Source: Microbotryomycetes sp. JL201
Taxonomy: Eukaryota; Basidiomycota; Microbotryomycetes
Reading direction: 5' to 3'
NCBI GenBank assembly: GCA_033819885.1
Contig: JAQYUZ010000016.1
Coordinates: 1-64,000, forward strand
DNA: 64,000 nt
Shown here: positions 38,405-51,863 of the stretch, in pieces
How the letters are laid out: the number at the start of each line of letters is the position of its first letter
Position numbering within the stretch: position 1 is the first letter of the stretch
Notes under the pieces: model-generated
What the model saw: only the letters and a program-made list of their open reading frames with translations
Database searches by the model: none
Told to the model about the DNA's origin: nothing
Made by a program: the position numbers and the translations under genes

Positions 38405-40143
38405 ATGGCGACTGATCCAGCGACGGAGCACGAAACGGTCAAGCAGAATGACCAGCCTTGGACGATTACGAAAGCGACGACGGCTGTGCGAATGGCGTGA
38501 GTGATCGGCCCCACAAGGTTGCCGGAGTTTGCGCGTGCCGTGCTGACCGCGCACGAGAAACGCGCATCTCGCTCTCGACTGACTTGAAACGGTTCCAGAT
38601 GGACATACAAGAGCGTGATCGGCAGCGTGGCAGCTACGGGGGTCAAGTACTATACCGTAGGACGTCAGTCGAGCGACTGAAACGCGCGGACATCCGATCG
38701 AGCTCAACTAACATGTCACATTCGCATCCACGCAGCGCCGCAAGAGTCGTGGTCGATCGAGACTGCCTTGTTCATTGCTGCGGTCAGGTCACTGAACCAG
38801 CACAGAGCCGCAAACTCGAACGTGCCTCCGCACGAGATTGATGAATTCAAGGCGGCAAAAGCGTCGAGGAAGAGGCTCGCCATGGCAGAGACGCACAACC
38901 CAAAGAACGGTGCATGTGCTGACGTGGCCATTCCGGTCAGGAAACGAGCAGGCCTGCAAGGCATCTTGAAAGACTTTGACGAACAAGAATCCGGCACAAG
39001 GACGATCGAGGCAGAGTGGCAACTGCACAATGATGCCCGCGCCAGTCCAAGTGACCGCGTGGTGCTCTACTTGCACGGCGGTGGCTATTTCCTGCTCAAC
39101 AGGAGATGCCAGAGGCCAATCACGTTGCTTGTCAGCAAAATGCTCAACTGCCGCATCTTGAGCGTCGACTACCGCCTCTGCCCCGAGACGAGATTTCCAG
39201 GAGGATTGCACGACGCAGTCAGCGCCTACTTGTACCTGACGCAGGACCTTGGCGTACCACCAGAAAACATCATCGTCGCCGGAGACTCCGCCGGTGGCGG
39301 TCTGTCCCTCGCGCTCATGCTGTATCTGCGCGACACAGAGATGCCCATGATCGGAGGCGCGTACCTGTTGTCGCCTTACTGCGATGGCACGAGCTCGCTC
39401 GGATCGTGGAAGTCGAACGAGCTTTCCGACTACTTGGCCATGCCAGACAGGAAACATCCCATGTTTCCAATGAATTTGTACCTTGGCGACAAGTGTGACG
39501 AGCTCATTCTGCATCCATACGTCACATCGAGTCTGGCCGACCTATCGGGCCTGCCTCCGATGTTGATACAGGCCGGTGGCGCAGAGACTCTGCGGGACGA
39601 AGTGACAGTGCTAGCGCATCGAGCCGCTCAGGCAGGCGTGCGCGTCAGGCACGAAGGCAAGCTTGATGTTAGACTCTGTCTCGGGTTTAGCTAAACATTG
39701 GGTCGCATACAGTGTTCGAAGGAGGGATTCACGTGTTTCAAGCTTTCGTCAAGACAGACGCGGCCGTCGCGGCGTACAAAGCACTGCGAGAATGGTATTC
39801 GTCGGATGTACCTTCTTCAAAGGCTGGAGGTGACTTTGGACGAGCAAATCAACTGCTTGACAACGCCTTTGCGGTACGCGACGGTAAATTGGCCAAGGAG
39901 TCCAAAGGCAAACCAAAATCTACACAGCAAAGGGTTGCGCGCGAGCCGAGATTCGTATTTGAGGCTGTACAGAAGCCTGCGCCCACCGTTGCGGGACACG
40001 ACGGCGCGTTTGCAGAATTGCGAAAGGCGGCAGAAGCCATGCAATCGGAAGGCGACCAGAATGTGACTTTTATCTATGAAGCGAGGAGAAACGAGAAAGC
40101 CGTTGGTATTGTAGGCAAGGTTAGAGGTATTCTGCACTTGTAA
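38405..40143 (+). CDS. alpha/beta hydrolase, hormone-sensitive-lipase/steryl-acetyl-hydrolase group (copy A)
   Basis: Serine hydrolase with the oxyanion-hole motif LYLHGGGYFLLNRR, nucleophile elbow VAGDSAGGGLSLALM, an acidic residue in GGAETLRDE and the catalytic His in FEGGIHVFQAF. The start is MATDPATEHETVKQND, followed over introns by an N-terminal helix-rich part with AWTYKSVIGSVAATGVKYYT and PPQESWSIETALFIAAV. A GC-AG intron (39657-39712) joins RHE to VFEGGIHVF. The C-terminal 100 residues are basic and polar (LAKESKGKPKSTQQR) and end RGILHL. The natural ester is unknown; related yeast enzymes deacetylate sterols. It is a tandem paralogue of the gene at 40248, 105 bp downstream. Confidence 0.85.
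39657..39712 (+). other. GC-AG intron in hydrolase copy A
   Basis: The donor is GAAG then GCAAGC, the acceptor CATACAG. Splicing here restores HEVFEGGIHVF, which aligns with HEVYENGVHSF of the neighbouring paralogue. No GT donor nearby gives this phase. Confidence 0.8.
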
Positions 40144-40247
40144 TTCATAGCAAAATTTGCCGTCACGTGATCCGTTCATCCTCTTCCGAGCGACATTGAA
40201 GAGTCGTCTCTTTCTTCCATCTGCGCCGCCTGCAAAGCCATCGAGAG

Positions 40248-41962
40248 ATGTATGTCGAGCTCTCAGTTTTGTACGGCCCCTTTGAGAGGTCCCGCGCACG
40301 CCATGCTGTACAGCTCGAGCGAAGCGAACTAACACTTTCACGAGACGACTCTGCAGGGCGGCAGCAGTTCCGGCAATCTTGAAAACGTTGTATAGGCACT
40401 TTACGTCCGGGCGTGAGCTACACACCATGTGCACCTCCCTCGTGCAGGCTGTTGCTCGGCCGTATGACATCATCTCAACTTGGCTGAACAAAGCTGACAA
40501 AACTTGATGCATCTTCCAAAACGCCAGCGCCAAGTCAATACGAATCATTGTCGTTGAAGCTGCAACTCGTCACTGCCATCATGCGGACGACGGACGAAGC
40601 AGAAGCTCGAAAAGCGATGGCGAACCCAGACAAGATTGATGTGACCAAGGAGACACGGAGCAAAAGGTCTCGCCTGGAAAAGCTTGGTGCACAAAAGCCA
40701 AAGCAAGCTGTCGTATTGGAAGTGGATATTCCTGTGAAACATCAAGGTTTCGTAGGAGAATTGCACACTCGGCCTGAAGACGGGTCCAGGCGAATAGATG
40801 TCTGTCTGTCATGAACGTTGACCATTACGTTGCTTTACTTACTTCTCTGATCTGCAAACAGGCCGAATGGGAACTGCATGACCAGGTCACGGAGCCTCGC
40901 ACAGACCGAATGGTCTTGTACGTGCACGGCGTGAGTTCCGGTGGACTTCCGCCAGATTTGGTTCAATTACCTGACACAGCACTGCAGGGCGGATACTCAA
41001 TCTTGTCCCGGAAGGTGTACAGACCCGTGTCGGTCCAGCTCAGCGCAGTGCTCAATTGCCCCGTGCTCAGCACGAACTACAGTCTCGCCCCAGAGAACCC
41101 TTATCCCGCGGCGATTCGGGACATTGTCTCTGTATACCTGCATCTGACCCGGGACCTCGAGATTCCAGCGTCTTCAATTATCGTCGCTGGTGACTCTTCA
41201 GGAGCGGCAATGTGTCTTGCCTTGATGTTGTACTTGCGCGACAACGACATGGCCATGGTCTCGAGCTCGATCCTGTTTTCACCTTCATGCGATCTGACAA
41301 GAAGCTTTAAATCATTAGACGACAACGCCGCATGGGACGCTTTGCACGAACCTCCAAACTCTTGCAAAACTTGTCCAGGCAGGTTGTACTTGTCTCAACA
41401 AGATCAAGAGTTTGATAGGTTGTCGGTCAAGCCTTACGTGTCTGCTTCAATCTCGGCAGATTTCAAGGGTTTACCTCGACTGCTAGTTGTGACGGGATCG
41501 AACGAAGTTTTAAGGGATGAAAGCGTCTTGTTGAGCCAGAGAGCAGCTCATGATGGTGTAGACGTTACTCACGAGGTGTACGAGAACGGTGTACACTCTT
41601 TCGTCGTATTCACGGACGAAGACGTCGCCGTCGCAGCTTATGCAAACATCGCCGAGTGGGCAGCCGAGAGAGAAGAAGGCGACAGGGACAGCATCGGACT
41701 GCGTGACATCATCGACAGGCTCATTGAAAAGAGACGCGCCAAAGGATGGAACGCGAACCAAGCCAAACGAAAAGAGATCACGCCAAAATGGGTGTTTGAG
41801 CGAGACGACAGCAAGCAAGTACAAAGGGTGAGATGCAGAGATGAAGCGCACCCGAAAGCAAAAGAAACTCTGGAAGGGCTGGAGAGACAGGGTTACCTTG
41901 AAAATGTGACAACCGTCTACTCGCCGAGGCGAAATCATGGTGGCAAGACAATCTTGTTGTAA
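40248..41962 (+). CDS. alpha/beta hydrolase, paralogue of the preceding gene (copy B)
   Basis: Same fold and order as copy A: HG-GGYSILSRKVY (split by an intron at 40931-40987), PVLSTNYSLAPENPYPAAI, nucleophile motif VAGDSSGAAMCLALM, acidic LRDESVLL and catalytic His in YENGVHSFVVF. The proposed start MYVELSVLAAAVPAILKTLY uses a first intron ending at the CTGCAG near 40358. A second intron (gtgagc...acgccag) then yields TSGPPSQYESLSLKLQ, at the same GP-P codon position and phase as in copy A. A further intron separates RRID from AEWELHD, absent in copy A. The C-terminal tail is basic, ending NHGGKTILL. Substrate unknown. The 5' exons are inferred by analogy with copy A. Confidence 0.82.
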
Positions 41963-46231: not shown

Positions 46232-47699
46232 TCACTGCGATTTCTTCTGGTCATGGTCACGTTCAAGTTGATTGCGAATCTCTTGCTCTGCTTCTTTCGC
46301 CCACTTTAAACTGCGCTCGCGATCAAAGCCAGGGACAGTCCCTTGGAGCAACGGGTCGGGATGCTTGATCGCGAACGGGTTCACATCGTCTTTACGCAAG
46401 TTGGCGAGCGTGTGCTGCAATAGTCAGGTTGTCAGCATCGGCTCGGAGATTAGCACTCCGCGAATGCACTCACATTGACGAACCGGTGTCCCGCTTCGTC
46501 GGCTCGAATAGCTTCGACAAGTTCTGTCATGGTGGCCGTCTGTGGCATTCGCCAGTAGTCCTTTGCAATCTGGGGCACCTCGAGCTTGTCCCACTCTGGA
46601 AGATGTCCACGCCGCATCTCGTCAAGAATCTGCGTATAAGTCAGGCACGCCTCTTCTTCCAAGCAACCAACGAAGCGATGCGCTGCGCGGGGTGACATGA
46701 GGTAGGTCAAGAAGAACGCGTTGAAAAAGACGCTGGCGGAGAACAATATATCAGAACCGTGGTCGAGCCAGTAAAGACGCTTCGGGCAGCTGACCCTTGA
46801 GCGAGGATGATCATGACTCGCATGAACAGTCCCGGCTTGGCAATCTTGAGCCAAGTCAGCAGGTGCATGCGCTCGTTTTCGGCTTCTTGCAGGAGGGTGG
46901 CGATCCAGCCTCCGTCTCGCTTGAGTGCACGGATGCTTCGCAGGTGGCGAAGGACGCCTGCTGTGAAGCCGGGAACGCCTGCGATAGATTCGAGGAACAG
47001 GATGCGGACATTCCATTGGTCGGGCGTCATGAGGAACCCTTCCTTCCTCAGTTCGGCCAGGGACTGGGTTTGAAATAGGTCAGACACCGACATGGTACCT
47101 TTCGTGTCGAAAAAGCTCACTAGATCCGTTTTGCCCTGCTTCTTCAAAGCTTCGATGGCAGCTTCAGGCGAGGCGTGCTGCGCAAGCCAAGAGCTCGGTC
47201 AGCCAATGTGCGAATTCAAAATTTCGTCGAGACATACTTTGTAGCGCGTCACAAAATCAAACAGACGCCTTGAAAGCTTGACGAGTCCTGTTGATATTAT
47301 TTGTTAGTTGCGGAGCACGTACGATGTGGAGCCCACGCCAGTTCCCGGCGACGGCAGAGTCAGCACTGACCGGCAGCGAGCTTATCCGAGGGTGTGTTGA
47401 GTGGTGCTCGGACGACTTTGACTGTTTGGGTGTCTTCAGGTGTGTCTACAAGTGGCGAGAGTTCAGCGAAGGCAGCACTCCTCAGGTTGCATGCGCTCAC
47501 AGACAGCATGACGCATGACCCAGTCCTCGTGTGGCCGAGAGTGCTTCCATGTCGCGGTTTTTGCGTCGAGATGGTGGGGCTGGAACGCGTTGCGCGCGTC
47601 AGATGCTTGTGCCGAGAGTAGGCTTGACGACGTGAGCAGACGAGCGCCGAGCAGGCGTGGTGGATGGCGGGAAGCAAGCGTGGCTAGTCGAATTGACAT
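46232..47699 (-). CDS. AOX1: mitochondrial alternative oxidase
   Basis: Di-iron ubiquinol oxidase of the inner mitochondrial membrane that passes electrons to oxygen without proton pumping. The N-terminus [20 protein letters not shown] is a clear mitochondrial presequence. Next come [19 protein letters not shown] (restored by a splice at gtgagc) and [12 protein letters not shown]. All iron ligands are present: Glu in LESIAGVPG, Glu and His in NERMHLLTW, Glu in LEEEACLTY, and Glu and His in [11 protein letters not shown]. The QDC-type fungal insertion is modest. It ends [12 protein letters not shown]. About five introns. A CACGTG lies at 47812-47817, about 115 bp upstream of the start. AOX genes are usually induced when the cytochrome chain is blocked; no specific site for this is seen. 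Confidence 0.96.
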
Positions 47700-48415
47700 T
47701 TTCTTATGTTTGCGAGGAAAGAAAGAGCTCGGTCGAGTGAAACTGCTGTGACGCAGCGGCTAGCGAATCGATCCGACTTTGAACGGTCGGACTCGGCGTC
47801 GGAAGCGAGCGCACGTGACCGTCTTATAAGTCTCAACTTGGGGCGGAACCGATGACGACTCATGCATTTGAAGCATCTATGGGGTAGACAGACGTCTCTT
47901 CGCTCAGCAAAGCACATCCGTGTCGCTGGACCGGCCGGCTGGCGGCGCGTCGGCCGCTGCTCTGATCTGTCGGGAGTTCATGGAATTTTGCGACGAGCTT
48001 GATGCTCAAAATCAGGATGTAGGGTGCAAAGAAGTACAATTCAATGCTCAAACGAGCCCACTGATGGAACCCATTCATCTTACAATTATCAGTCCCAAGC
48101 AGGTTTGCAGGTGACGCTACGTGGGTGCAGGCCCTGTCTCGAAACACAAGACAATTCATGACCCAATGTCGAATGAGCAAGCCATTCAAGGGCTCATGCT
48201 ATCGCCGCCCACGCTTTGATCGACGCTGCCGCCGCGCCCGCGCGCGGGGGACGGAATCTCCCACCAGCGAACGCTCCAAAAATGTACAGGTCGTTTCGAG
48301 CAGCACCCCTGCCAAACGAATCGCCTTGCAAGAAGCTGCGCGCGTCAACGTTTTGCTCGACTCGAAAACATTCGGTTGCGTGCTGCGGACGACAGTCTTT
48401 CTTTCGTGCTCTCAA
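47700..48415. other. divergent promoter region between AOX and the Zn2Cys6 gene
   Basis: 716 bp with a CACGTG at 47812-47817 and a TTATAA near 47824. A minus frame (47860-48189) includes a hydrophobic stretch (LYFFAPYILILSIKLVAKF) that could be a tiny membrane protein, but it shows no homology that I recognise and no codon structure beyond chance. Confidence 0.4.
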
Positions 48416-50108
48416 ATGGCCAAGACGCAGGGCGGAGCGAGCGGCAGCGCGCGCGCTGGCCGAACGATTGTTAGAATCAACAGCTTGCCTCGTGGCCTGA
48501 GCTGCCAGCCATGTCAGTCATTTGTGCATGACCGAACTTTGGCTGTTCGCTGACGTCGTTGCGCGAAATGGCTCAATACGTGCTGTCGACGGTTGCAGGC
48601 CGCGACAGACGAGTGAGATGTGATGCACAGAAACCTGCATGTGGTGCATGCCTCAGGAAAGCGAAATGGGACGGCAGGAACGTCGACGCGGAACATGGTT
48701 GCGTCTACGTTCAAGACTCGTCAACGCCGTTGGGACAGGCTCGGCGCGGCTCGAAGGCACGCACAGCATCATCAAAGCTAAAGCTACCTCGACGTGAGCT
48801 TGACTTTTGCAAACGATATGCCAGTGGTGCTCTGACTGGCGCGCAAACTGACCCGCTCACGGATCGCAGTGTCCGAGATCGATGACACCGCAGCCATTCC
48901 ACTATCGAAAGCGACAAATAGAAAACAACGGCAACTACCGGCTCACACGTCATTCAATGAACTTATTGTCGGCGTCGACCGGTTACCGACTTCCACCGTC
49001 CGCTCAGCAAGCGAAACCTCGAAAGCCTCTGTCGCAATGAACTCGAAAGGTCCTCTTCAGAAAGGTAGGCAGCATCGCGCTATATGCCATTTTCGTTCTA
49101 ATTGTTTGCCCTCAGGCCTTGCCTGCTTGTCTTGCAAGATTCGCAGAGTCAAATGCGACGGCTTGAAACCAAGCTGTTCTAGTTGTATTCGCAACGCGCG
49201 CTGGCAAGGCCGCGACCCAGAGACCGAGCACGGATGTATCTATGTTCCGTGTTCCGCCGTCAGTATTCCGTCGTATGCAAAGCGAAAAGCACACGCGACC
49301 CCGACCTTATCCGCGACATCCGCGCCGGCTTCCTCTTCAGGCGACAGCTCCGGTAAGCACCGGATGGGCCTGAAGTCTCGTGGATCCCAAGCTCACAGTT
49401 TAACCTGCAGCAGGACAATCATCATCTGAAGCACCCGCATCGCCAGAACTTTTAGCCGCCAGCCTGCCGCCGCTGCCGACAGACGATCTGCTTCAGATGT
49501 CGTCGGTCGCTGCACGCCCGTTCAAACATGCGCCTGAATCGCCCCGTTCGGTCCCGTCCTTGACATCATCGAACGAGACGGTCGCGTCACCGTTGCCTTC
49601 GCCGCTCATGTCGCCACACGGCACGCCTCATGTGTTCTTCGGACATGACCTGCTACCTGTCAGTTACCCTCCTGTTCCATATCCTCCGACAGACTTTTGG
49701 GATGGCGACGACTTCCAATTGCCCGGGCCAGCTTTCGACTTTTCGACCGTCAAGCAATTCAAGCGCGGAGCGAGCGATGGATACTTGTGGGAGAGTGACT
49801 CGACGAGTTTTGCGCCATCGAGCTCGGGTCTGAGTTTGAGCCTGTCTGGCATGAATTTGGTGGTGCCGGAGCACAGCGAAGACCCCGAGGAGGATGACTT
49901 GAGGTCAGGATCGGTTCAGGACGATGCTGCGCTGCGGAAACGACAACGGGTCACGTCGCCCATGCCTAGCTGCGCAGTGAACCAAGGCTTTGTGAGCTCT
50001 TTCAGTCTCGAAGGACAAAAGCACGACTCTGTGGAAGAGCAGGCCTGGAAGATCGAACTTGGAGGATGTTTGTCGGATGAGCTTACGGTTGGCTGGGGCT
50101 TGTCGTAA
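48416..50108 (+). CDS. transcription factor with two complete Zn(II)2Cys6 clusters
   Basis: Probable nuclear DNA-binding regulator. Residues about 27-69 form one binuclear cluster: SCQPC-RDRRVRC-DAQKPAC-GAC and a final Cys in EHGCVY. Residues about 163-205 form a second: ACLSC-KIRRVKC-DGLKPSC-SSC and a final Cys in EHGCIY. Both have the spacing C-x2-C-x6-C-x6-C-x2-C-x16-C and share W-x-GR and EHGC-x-Y, so one looks like a copy of the other. Splice phases hold throughout: T|GC within the fourth residue of the first CxxC, then gtgagc...gatcgcag, then gtaggc...ccctcag. A single reading frame therefore covers both. The remaining 350 residues are Ser and Pro-rich with an aromatic-acidic patch (FWDGDDFQLPGPAFDF) that may activate. 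No fungal-specific regulatory domain is seen. Target genes unknown. Confidence 0.82.
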
Positions 50109-50357
50109 GCCGACATCTGATATCCCTCGTCTGCTCAACACTTGTTCGGGCGGACGAATAGACACTCTTTTAGACGTACAAAAAAGTCCTGACACTGGGG
50201 TCGCAGCACCTGTTCGCTCCCCCTTCGGACATGGAATGTTGTATGCATTTGTTGTGAATATACAAACCTTCCGGGAAAATGCGCACATGCGCCCCACGAG
50301 ATTTCATTTTCGTTGTCGCACAGACGGCAGACGGTCCGCGTCTTGAGGGCACCGGCC

Positions 50358-51330
50358 ATGTCTTTCATGATGCGCCGCTCGCCGCTAGCTCCTTGCCTGA
50401 GAGCATTCTCGACGTCCAGAGCGCGATTGTCGTCGAACGGTGCAGGCGTGCCCGTCAAGAAGGATGGTCAATCAGGTCAGGACGTTGCTGTACGACCAGA
50501 AGGCAGCGTCGTGCAAGCCGGCGTCGTCAGTGGTGCACCTGGTACGTCTGTTCTGCTCGTATATCCGATCTTGTGAGCAAGGAAGGCAGTCGGTGCGGCG
50601 TAAGCACCGTGGCGACGGTGCCGGCAGCAGAGTGCTGGTCTCTGTACCTTCACTTGCGATCCTTGCGGTCGAATGATCTGTGCCGCTCCGATTCAAGGAT
50701 ATTGGCTGTTCGCTGACGTCCGATCTGGGGTACTGTGCCCGCGCGCGTGCTTAGATGAGGTGTTTCATCGACCGGTGCGCGTCTACCGCCCTTCACCGCC
50801 CTCGACACAGTCTGCCATGTCAACGAGTCATCACTGGCGCGTCGATTGGGACATTCTGCCCCAGTCTGGCAGATGGGAGAACCCGCTGATGGGCTGGGCT
50901 TCAAGGTGAGACGGCGGCAGCCATACTGAGCTGTACAGAGCATACGCGCGATGGGTCTCCCCCTTCTGTGAACACTACTGACAGTGGATCACTTATCCGT
51001 ATGCGCTTTGTCTGCCGTATACGTGCTCGGTGGTCGCGACAATCAATAGTGGCGACTACCTTCAAGGCACGAACCTCAAGTTTGATTCAAAGGAGGCTGC
51101 CATCCAGTTCTGCGAGAAGCAAGGCTACGAGTACTATGTGCAAGAGCCGCACGTTGCCAAATTCAAGCCAAAGAGCTATTCGACGTGAGTAGAATGTCGG
51201 CCGAAGACGCTCGAGAGCGGAGGGACCTTGCGGACGAGCTGACATGAACATGCGGGATTACGTGCGTTCTGTGCTATGCAGCAACTACAAGTACACACCA
51301 AAGCCGTTGCGTATCGTTCACACAAAGTAA
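50358..51330 (+). CDS. NDUFS4: complex I subunit NDUFS4 (18/21-kDa, NUYM type)
   Basis: Accessory subunit of the peripheral arm of mitochondrial NADH dehydrogenase, needed for stability of the N-module. The start MSFMMRRSPLAPCLRAFSTS is a mitochondrial presequence. After an intron of about 210 nt come DEVFHRPVRVYRPSPPSTQS, HHWRVDWDILPQSGRWENPL, MGWASS, YLQGTNLKFDSKEAAIQFC, EKQGYEYYVQEP and FKPKSYS, ending NYKYTPKPLRIVHTK. This is the complete canonical domain with its usual C-terminus. Three or four introns. It lies head to tail with the IVD gene, both mitochondrial, about 530 bp apart. Confidence 0.95.
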
Positions 51331-51863
51331 ACGGGTTTGTTACTTCCTACGCGAGCTGTAGCAATGATTGGATTGTCGTCGGATCTGTGAATGATTTGGT
51401 GCAATCTATGGTAGTGAGACAGCGCCGGTGCTGCAGTTCGCTGTTATTTGCACGGTTTCATCTCGAGCTTGGGCTCACGCCGCGAGATGCTTCCTGTGCT
51501 TCACAGTACCGAGCGGCGACGTGACTTGCGAGAGGATTCTGGATGTCTTTTCCATCCCATAATGAAAGCGGTTGTTTGTCAACTCGTACAAGAAGCGTTC
51601 GGCGTGATCTGACCTTGCCGATTGAGTGGCAAAGGCTCTGTGCAAGGACAACCGACATTTGAATCAGGTCTGCTCCGACGTTCCGATTATATTGATGTGG
51701 CGAGGTATGTATTGCTTCCTCGGACGGTGCGAAAAGTGTACATGGCGCCGGTCCGACGGATGGCCGCCGTTGCCGAGCGTTTTAAACTGCGCGGCAGCGG
51801 GGCCCTTCCTTGCCTTTGCCTTTCTTTCCCCTTGCATCCCCCTTTTCCCACGACGACGGAAAC
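51331..51863. other. intergenic between NDUFS4 and IVD, no gene seen
   Basis: 533 bp. The right end is pyrimidine-rich (CCTTTTCCCACG just before the IVD start), as in many basidiomycete promoters. The minus frame at 51458-51658 has no motif. Confidence 0.5.

Follow-up and report, generated by a model that had tools for sequence, protein, structure and literature searches.

The stretch of DNA analysed here, referred to as the window, comprises 64,000 nucleotides from Microbotryomycetes sp. JL201 and lies on contig C8 of a 17.15 Mb assembly in 92 contigs. Between 46232 and 52900, genes for an alternative oxidase (AOX), a putative transcription factor with two Zn2Cys6 clusters, the complex I subunit NDUFS4 and an acyl-CoA dehydrogenase stand in a row, three of the four being respiration or fuel genes. 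The AOX gene (46232-47699, minus strand) was modelled with six exons and a product of 382 residues that matches PF01786 with an E-value of 6.2e-90; the deposited JL201 model of 363 residues is 95% identical to it and differs in exon details. A divergent intergenic region of 716 bp (47700-48415) separates it from the twin-cluster gene, whose downstream neighbour is the NDUFS4 gene (50358-51330, plus strand, outer limits approximate), recognised by two exons matching PF04800.

The twin-cluster gene occupies 48416-50108 on the plus strand and, in a spliced frame derived from the sequence alone, consists of five exons encoding 472 or 473 residues, the difference lying in intron 4, which has alternative in-frame acceptors at 49410 and 49413. 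Its four introns are of the GT-AG type and measure 51-86 bases, similar in size to the five introns of 55-83 bases in the AOX model next door. Exon 1 (48416-48512) holds the ATG, a start common to homologue P0001, together with a GRTI motif, the first cysteine of cluster 1 and the first base of the codon for the second, which is interrupted by intron 1 (48513-48598, GTCAGT..TTGCAG). The remainder of cluster 1 extends to 48702 within exon 2 (48599-48793), which continues into the first part of the linker and is followed by intron 2 (48794-48869, GTGAGC..TCGCAG). Exon 3 (48870-49064) encodes variable linker and ends in PLQK, and intron 3 (49065-49115, GTAGGC..CCTCAG) lies immediately 5′ of the GLAC of cluster 2, the whole of which (49124-49237) is contained in exon 4 (49116-49352). 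Finally, beyond intron 4 (49353-49410 or 49353-49413), exon 5 (49414-50108, or from 49411) encodes the C-terminal region up to the stop codon, predicted to be disordered and including a conserved core of residues 276-345 (49512-49721).

Splicing of the gene is supported by the end-to-end alignment of the product with one predicted protein of NB124-2 (479 residues, 73%). Because intron 1 splits the second cysteine codon of cluster 1, single-frame scans miss this cluster, and both the unspliced window scan and the Pfam scan of the JL201 genome list cluster 2 only. The start codon is the least certain part of the model: the NB124-2 protein starts at the same methionine, and the open frame continues upstream of the ATG at 48416 as far as 48065, so that the true start could be located further upstream. 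No JL201 protein for this gene appeared in the homologue search, though the JL201 AOX was found in the AOX search, and in the deposited annotation the twin-cluster gene may be missing or misread.

Architecture and origin of the cluster pair

Cluster 1 (residues 30-67) and cluster 2 (residues 166-203) both follow the pattern C-x2-C-x6-C-x6-C-x2-C-x16-C, have W-x-G-R and E-H-G-C-x-Y in common and are identical at 24 of 44 positions. In the Pfam scan of the product, Zn_clus (PF00172) reached 48.2 bits (cut-off 21, E 1.1e-12), with two stretches that are each within the E-value limit by themselves. The first-pass annotation had claimed two full clusters in one spliced frame, about 136 residues apart, with identical cysteine spacing and shared motifs. 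The five-exon model, the two Zn_clus stretches and the NB124-2 alignment bear out the single frame, the first cysteines at residues 30 and 166 give exactly the proposed distance, and spacing and motifs hold in the spliced product. Besides Zn_clus, the scan (E up to 10) returned only two families under their cut-offs; there was no match to Fungal_trans (PF04082), nor to PAS_13 (PF24990), with the HMMER filters dropping most weak matches. The x16 gap before the last cysteine, which had been placed at the edge of the usual range, does not stand out within this genome, where at least four genes with a single cluster have a long last loop as well (x15 in L028, x15/x16 in L053, x13 in L033 and x11/x12 in L040).

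The protein shares with the GAL4-type family (PF00172) the six-cysteine cluster, two short helices per cluster and basic residues after the second cysteine, and, of the proteins with solved structures, it is related by sequence or fold to HAP1, PUT3, GAL4, PPR1 and Pho7, among others. It differs from the usual members in having two clusters per chain and a long last loop (x12-x16 among its homologues), and in the lack of a Fungal_trans match. Two clusters in one predicted protein are described, in the portions of the sources available, for CCG_02279 and CCM_00582, which differ by x6 last loops and DUF3468 (PMC6471507), for PoZCP55 of Pleurotus, where they are located at the C-terminus and accompanied by septin domains (PMC7295025), and for an Alternaria factor mentioned in PMC10305253. 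Neither a binding test of the two clusters nor an AOX linkage is reported for these proteins in the same portions. PMC5988728 and PMC9292093, in their available parts, concern two separate factors and zinc ions in a crystal. In the open-licence literature, a scope outside which most subscription papers lie, no description of the twin-cluster family was found by searching, and open-licence literature on AOX or Rhodotorula yielded nothing on the gene among the matches listed.

In regard to the origin of the pair, an internal duplication had been suggested in the first-pass annotation. Compared with each other, clusters 1 and 2 score 164, in contrast to a best score of 124 for either of them against 23 other clusters of the genome and of 133 among the 253 pairs of those 23, which are the clusters readable in a single exon among 36 fetched sites (the other 13 gave no readable pattern). 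Being each other's best match among the readable clusters of the genome, they are likely to share common ancestry as a pair, which would probably have arisen by duplication. While the duplication itself is upheld in this way, a recent event can be rejected, and its age has to be corrected to old, because the cluster DNA is identical at 73 of 132 positions, with only 17 of 44 third codon positions retained, and because the same plan is found in other genera. Tandem Repeats Finder reported no row within 47000-51500. A tree of clusters (33 rows, 43 columns) is unresolved, with three of 29 inner branches well supported, and its split between cluster 1 and cluster 2 (support 32/0, 68% of 200 bootstrap trees) decides nothing.

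Two adjacent single-cluster genes on the minus strand of the same contig (L033 and L040, C8:228-232 kb) may show how a single-cluster ancestor could have looked. By eye, they resemble the twin-cluster gene in the GR[KT]I motif upstream, the long last loop (x13 and x11/x12) and the pre-cluster intron placed right before G-x-A-C, as at cluster 2, and differ from it in carrying one cluster each. The surrounding region (L017, C8:226500-234500) had been a candidate for a second double-cluster gene; inspection by eye suggests instead these two genes, about 3 kb apart and with their own starts.

Conservation and predicted structure

Two homologue searches retrieved 17 proteins, the second one (alignment as query, E up to 0.01) adding only P0016 and P0017. 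Twelve of them come from NB124-2, JL221, Rhodotorula, Rhodosporidiobolus and Sporobolomyces, all Microbotryomycetes, and the R. toruloides homologue is JCM10296v2_005557; the search scores only candidates sharing short words with the query (7991), and absence outside this class is accordingly weak evidence. Both clusters are complete in ten of the 17, and the remaining seven are truncated or partial: P0002 (JL221) and P0015, the latter a shorter model of R. nylandii P0007, begin within cluster 1, P0003 and P0004 begin inside cluster 2, and P0005, P0006 and P0017 consist of the tail only. The homologous part of P0002 starts, after four unrelated residues, at the point matching the boundary of intron 1 and exon 2. 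None of the 17 combines an intact start with a single cluster. The same architecture is present in proteins of Rhodotorula, Rhodosporidiobolus and Sporobolomyces.

In the 11 complete proteins (the window product and ten homologues) all six cysteines are kept in both clusters, and each cluster has RR or RK between its second and third cysteine. Spacing is more relaxed, as the last-cysteine loop ranges from x12 to x16 across the family and, in Sporidiobolales, the third and fourth cysteines are separated by x5 in one cluster and x6 in the other (clusters 1 and 2, respectively). Measured against the NB124-2 protein, cluster 1 is identical throughout (43/43), and cluster 2 plus lead-in (46/48) and the C-terminal core (69/70) are nearly so, while the linker agrees at 34/88 positions; JL221 gives 29/43 for cluster 1 (start missing), 43/48 for cluster 2 plus lead-in, 57/70 for the core and 29/88 for the linker. 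Both clusters are constrained while the linker is free, a pattern expected of two working units. The alignment of the family had 11 rows: besides the window product, it took in ten of the 15 proteins from the first homologue search (P0003-P0006 and P0015 were left out, and P0016 and P0017 came only with the second search). A genuine two-cluster form of this very widespread factor family, conserved in related genera, is well supported, and its conservation, together with the AOX linkage discussed below, is more interesting than the cysteine spacing.

The C-terminal core is rich in SP sites and contains HAPESPRSVPSL and SPLPSPLMSPHGTPHVFFGHDLLPVSYPPVPYPPTD. It is without a Pfam match and recurs in five metagenomic fragments (P0003-P0006 and P0017).

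In the predicted structure of the NB124-2 protein, high confidence is confined to the clusters (block pLDDT 85-93 and 80-94), the rest being mostly predicted as disordered. Each cluster has the two short helices of the binuclear-cluster fold, and no helix follows either of them. The R. toruloides model contains both clusters and, directly after cluster 2, a helix of 21 residues (153-173, mostly in blocks of pLDDT 85-90) that could dimerise the protein. A Foldseek search against the PDB gave 21 matches, all of which we take to be Zn2Cys6 chains; the best E-value is 0.16 and none is below 0.001, as expected for small domains in a long chain; families not listed are not thereby excluded. Judging from these models, the protein of JL201 and its close relatives could read DNA as a monomer, and the Rhodotorula relatives may also dimerise.

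The alternative oxidase neighbourhood

AOX and the twin-cluster gene lie on one contig in seven of the nine assemblies where both could be placed, considering the best 120 of 1261 AOX matches, among which R. toruloides, R. graminis and R. glutinis were not placeable. Placement relied on locus tags or on contigs of equal size in bases, the latter being indirect. The tags of the two genes are consecutive in NB124-2 (ACM66B_005442 and ACM66B_005443) and nine apart in R. babjevae, on a contig of 89,875 bases, and the genes share a contig in JL221 (180,031 bases), S. koalae (265,460 bases), R. kratochvilovae (1,091,042 bases) and R. nylandii (1,323,042 bases). In R. odoratus and S. blumeae they are found on different, short contigs. 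Three of the seven linked assemblies (JL201, NB124-2 and JL221) belong to close kin. Such linkage, on which the first-pass annotation is silent, is suggestive, and control of AOX by the twin-cluster factor could be considered a lead, with AOX as a candidate target only.

A known mechanism of AOX control offers a point of comparison. According to the available part of PMC5295593, Neurospora AOX is controlled by AOD2 and AOD5, a Zn2Cys6 heterodimer that binds CGG-N7-CGG upstream of it, and homologous pairs are used by Aspergillus (AcuM/AcuK) and Candida (Cwt1/Zcf11), as stated in the portions available of PMC12719309 and PMC10374912. The likeness of these pairs to the twin-cluster factor is one of analogy only, that is, paired units at CGG sites and AOX as a target; in each pair the two clusters sit on different proteins, one per chain, and AcuK and AcuM, as far as these sources go, carry PAS domains, whereas the twin-cluster product gave no PAS match.

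The AOX promoter lends no support to a reading of paired sites at this gene. The intergenic region contains 27 CGG/CCG triplets, as many as chance would give (shuffle mean 26.9), and CGG-N7-CGG is present there once, at 47784-47796, which 178 of 500 shuffles equal. The densest 25-bp window of the region has six triplets, a value reached by 19 of 500 shuffles; this stretch was examined several times and is not evidence. Across the whole 64-kb window, CGG-N7-CGG occurs 51 times, where shuffles average 36.45 and 3 of 100 get that high, including the one in the intergenic region, and this count is not informative.

A possible two-headed reader of DNA

In Zn2Cys6 factors, the choice of target depends largely on the spacing of the two clusters within the dimer, and a coiled-coil dimerisation element behind the cluster is usual, but not universal. 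Against this background, the explanation we moderately favour is a single transcription factor with two working units of old duplicate origin, which reads paired sites and has AOX as its first candidate target. The chain would comprise two Zn2Cys6 DNA-binding units with 98 residues of flexible linker between them and, after them, a disordered regulatory tail rich in SP and YPP. Both units would go back to a long-loop cluster that was duplicated long ago, before the lineages diverged. Most likely, one chain would read either a pair of CGG-type half-sites or two sites apart from each other, whether or not it dimerises in addition, and its first candidate targets would be AOX, named because of the conserved linkage, and the factor's own promoter. 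The analysis shows the gene structure, as far as sequence allows, the presence and conservation of the two clusters, their predicted folds and the linkage; from these we infer that each cluster binds DNA, how the two would divide it between them and which gene is the target. Bivalent reading by such a factor seems likely, and tethered reading of paired sites by a monomer, as had been proposed in the first place, plausible.

Several other explanations have to be weighed against it. Two genes, or a misjoined model in which cluster 1 is a short separate protein ending at 48885, appear highly improbable. Retention of intron 2 would lead to a stop at 48883-48885 and hence to a cluster-1-only product, the homologue search returned no JL201 protein and P0002 has no start; however, the NB124-2 alignment runs across the intron 2 junction, and ten complete homologues have both clusters in one predicted chain. 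These models are not fully independent, since they are predictions and, according to the available text of a paper on Sporidiobolales genomes, from which several of the JCM models among them probably come, proteins of R. toruloides NP11 were used as hints (PMC12093110). It is also conceivable, if unlikely, that one cluster alone reads DNA, the other being a protein-contact or structural unit, and that the protein acts as an ordinary dimer, perhaps via the helix after cluster 2. The R. toruloides helix at 153-173 and the x5 versus x6 spacing of the Sporidiobolales clusters fit this possibility; on the other hand, both clusters of all 11 complete proteins retain six cysteines and RR or RK between the second and third, and the NB124-2 model is devoid of the helix.

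As to the target, the matter is evenly poised, as the AOX linkage could equally be inherited gene order only, with the factor controlling something else. The promoter test was null, the linked assemblies include three from the closest relatives, and a large contig can carry both genes by chance, with odds of about 5-7% in R. kratochvilovae and likewise in R. nylandii (assuming genomes of about 20 Mb); the R. nylandii tags are far apart (JCM10213_004759 and JCM10213_009005), though draft tag order says little. Mere gene order accounts less well for the consecutive tags in NB124-2, the short gap in R. babjevae and the shared S. koalae contig. Another explanation, a fusion of AOD2 and AOD5 (AcuM, AcuK) into one chain, is disfavoured and scarcely credible. 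The product has no PAS_13 match, and the genome still holds single-cluster loci that, from their motifs and one PAS_13 match, we take to be AcuK/AcuM-like. The PAS_13 match, by a model that also fires in one of 14 control genomes, an archaeon, is at C45:402285, in a locus that has a ACAACQKAHLTC frame upstream of it; the other locus, at C45:479123, has a cluster reading CKFCRRSHMSC. Retained genes of this known kind of AOX regulator would also count against AOX control by the twin-cluster factor. What speaks for a fusion is that the heterodimer binds CGG-N7-CGG near AOX, in the part of PMC5295593 available, and that the twin-cluster gene adjoins AOX.

Returning to the single factor with two working units, its most far-reaching version, which we hold to be quite doubtful, is that Microbotryomycetes possess an AOX-linked two-headed factor that needs no partner to read paired half-sites and that governs alternative respiration, as a separately evolved one-protein counterpart of AOD2/AOD5. 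Should AOX be the target, alternative respiration would, in organisms that serve for making lipids and carotenoids, be under a regulator different from the PAS-domain pair described so far. Independently of the target, a natural tethered double cluster, kept across genera including the oleaginous R. toruloides, lets the question of tethering in place of dimerisation be tested directly.

Elsewhere in the window, two adjacent Abhydrolase_3 genes are located at 38681-41959 on the plus strand and are possibly tandem duplicates.
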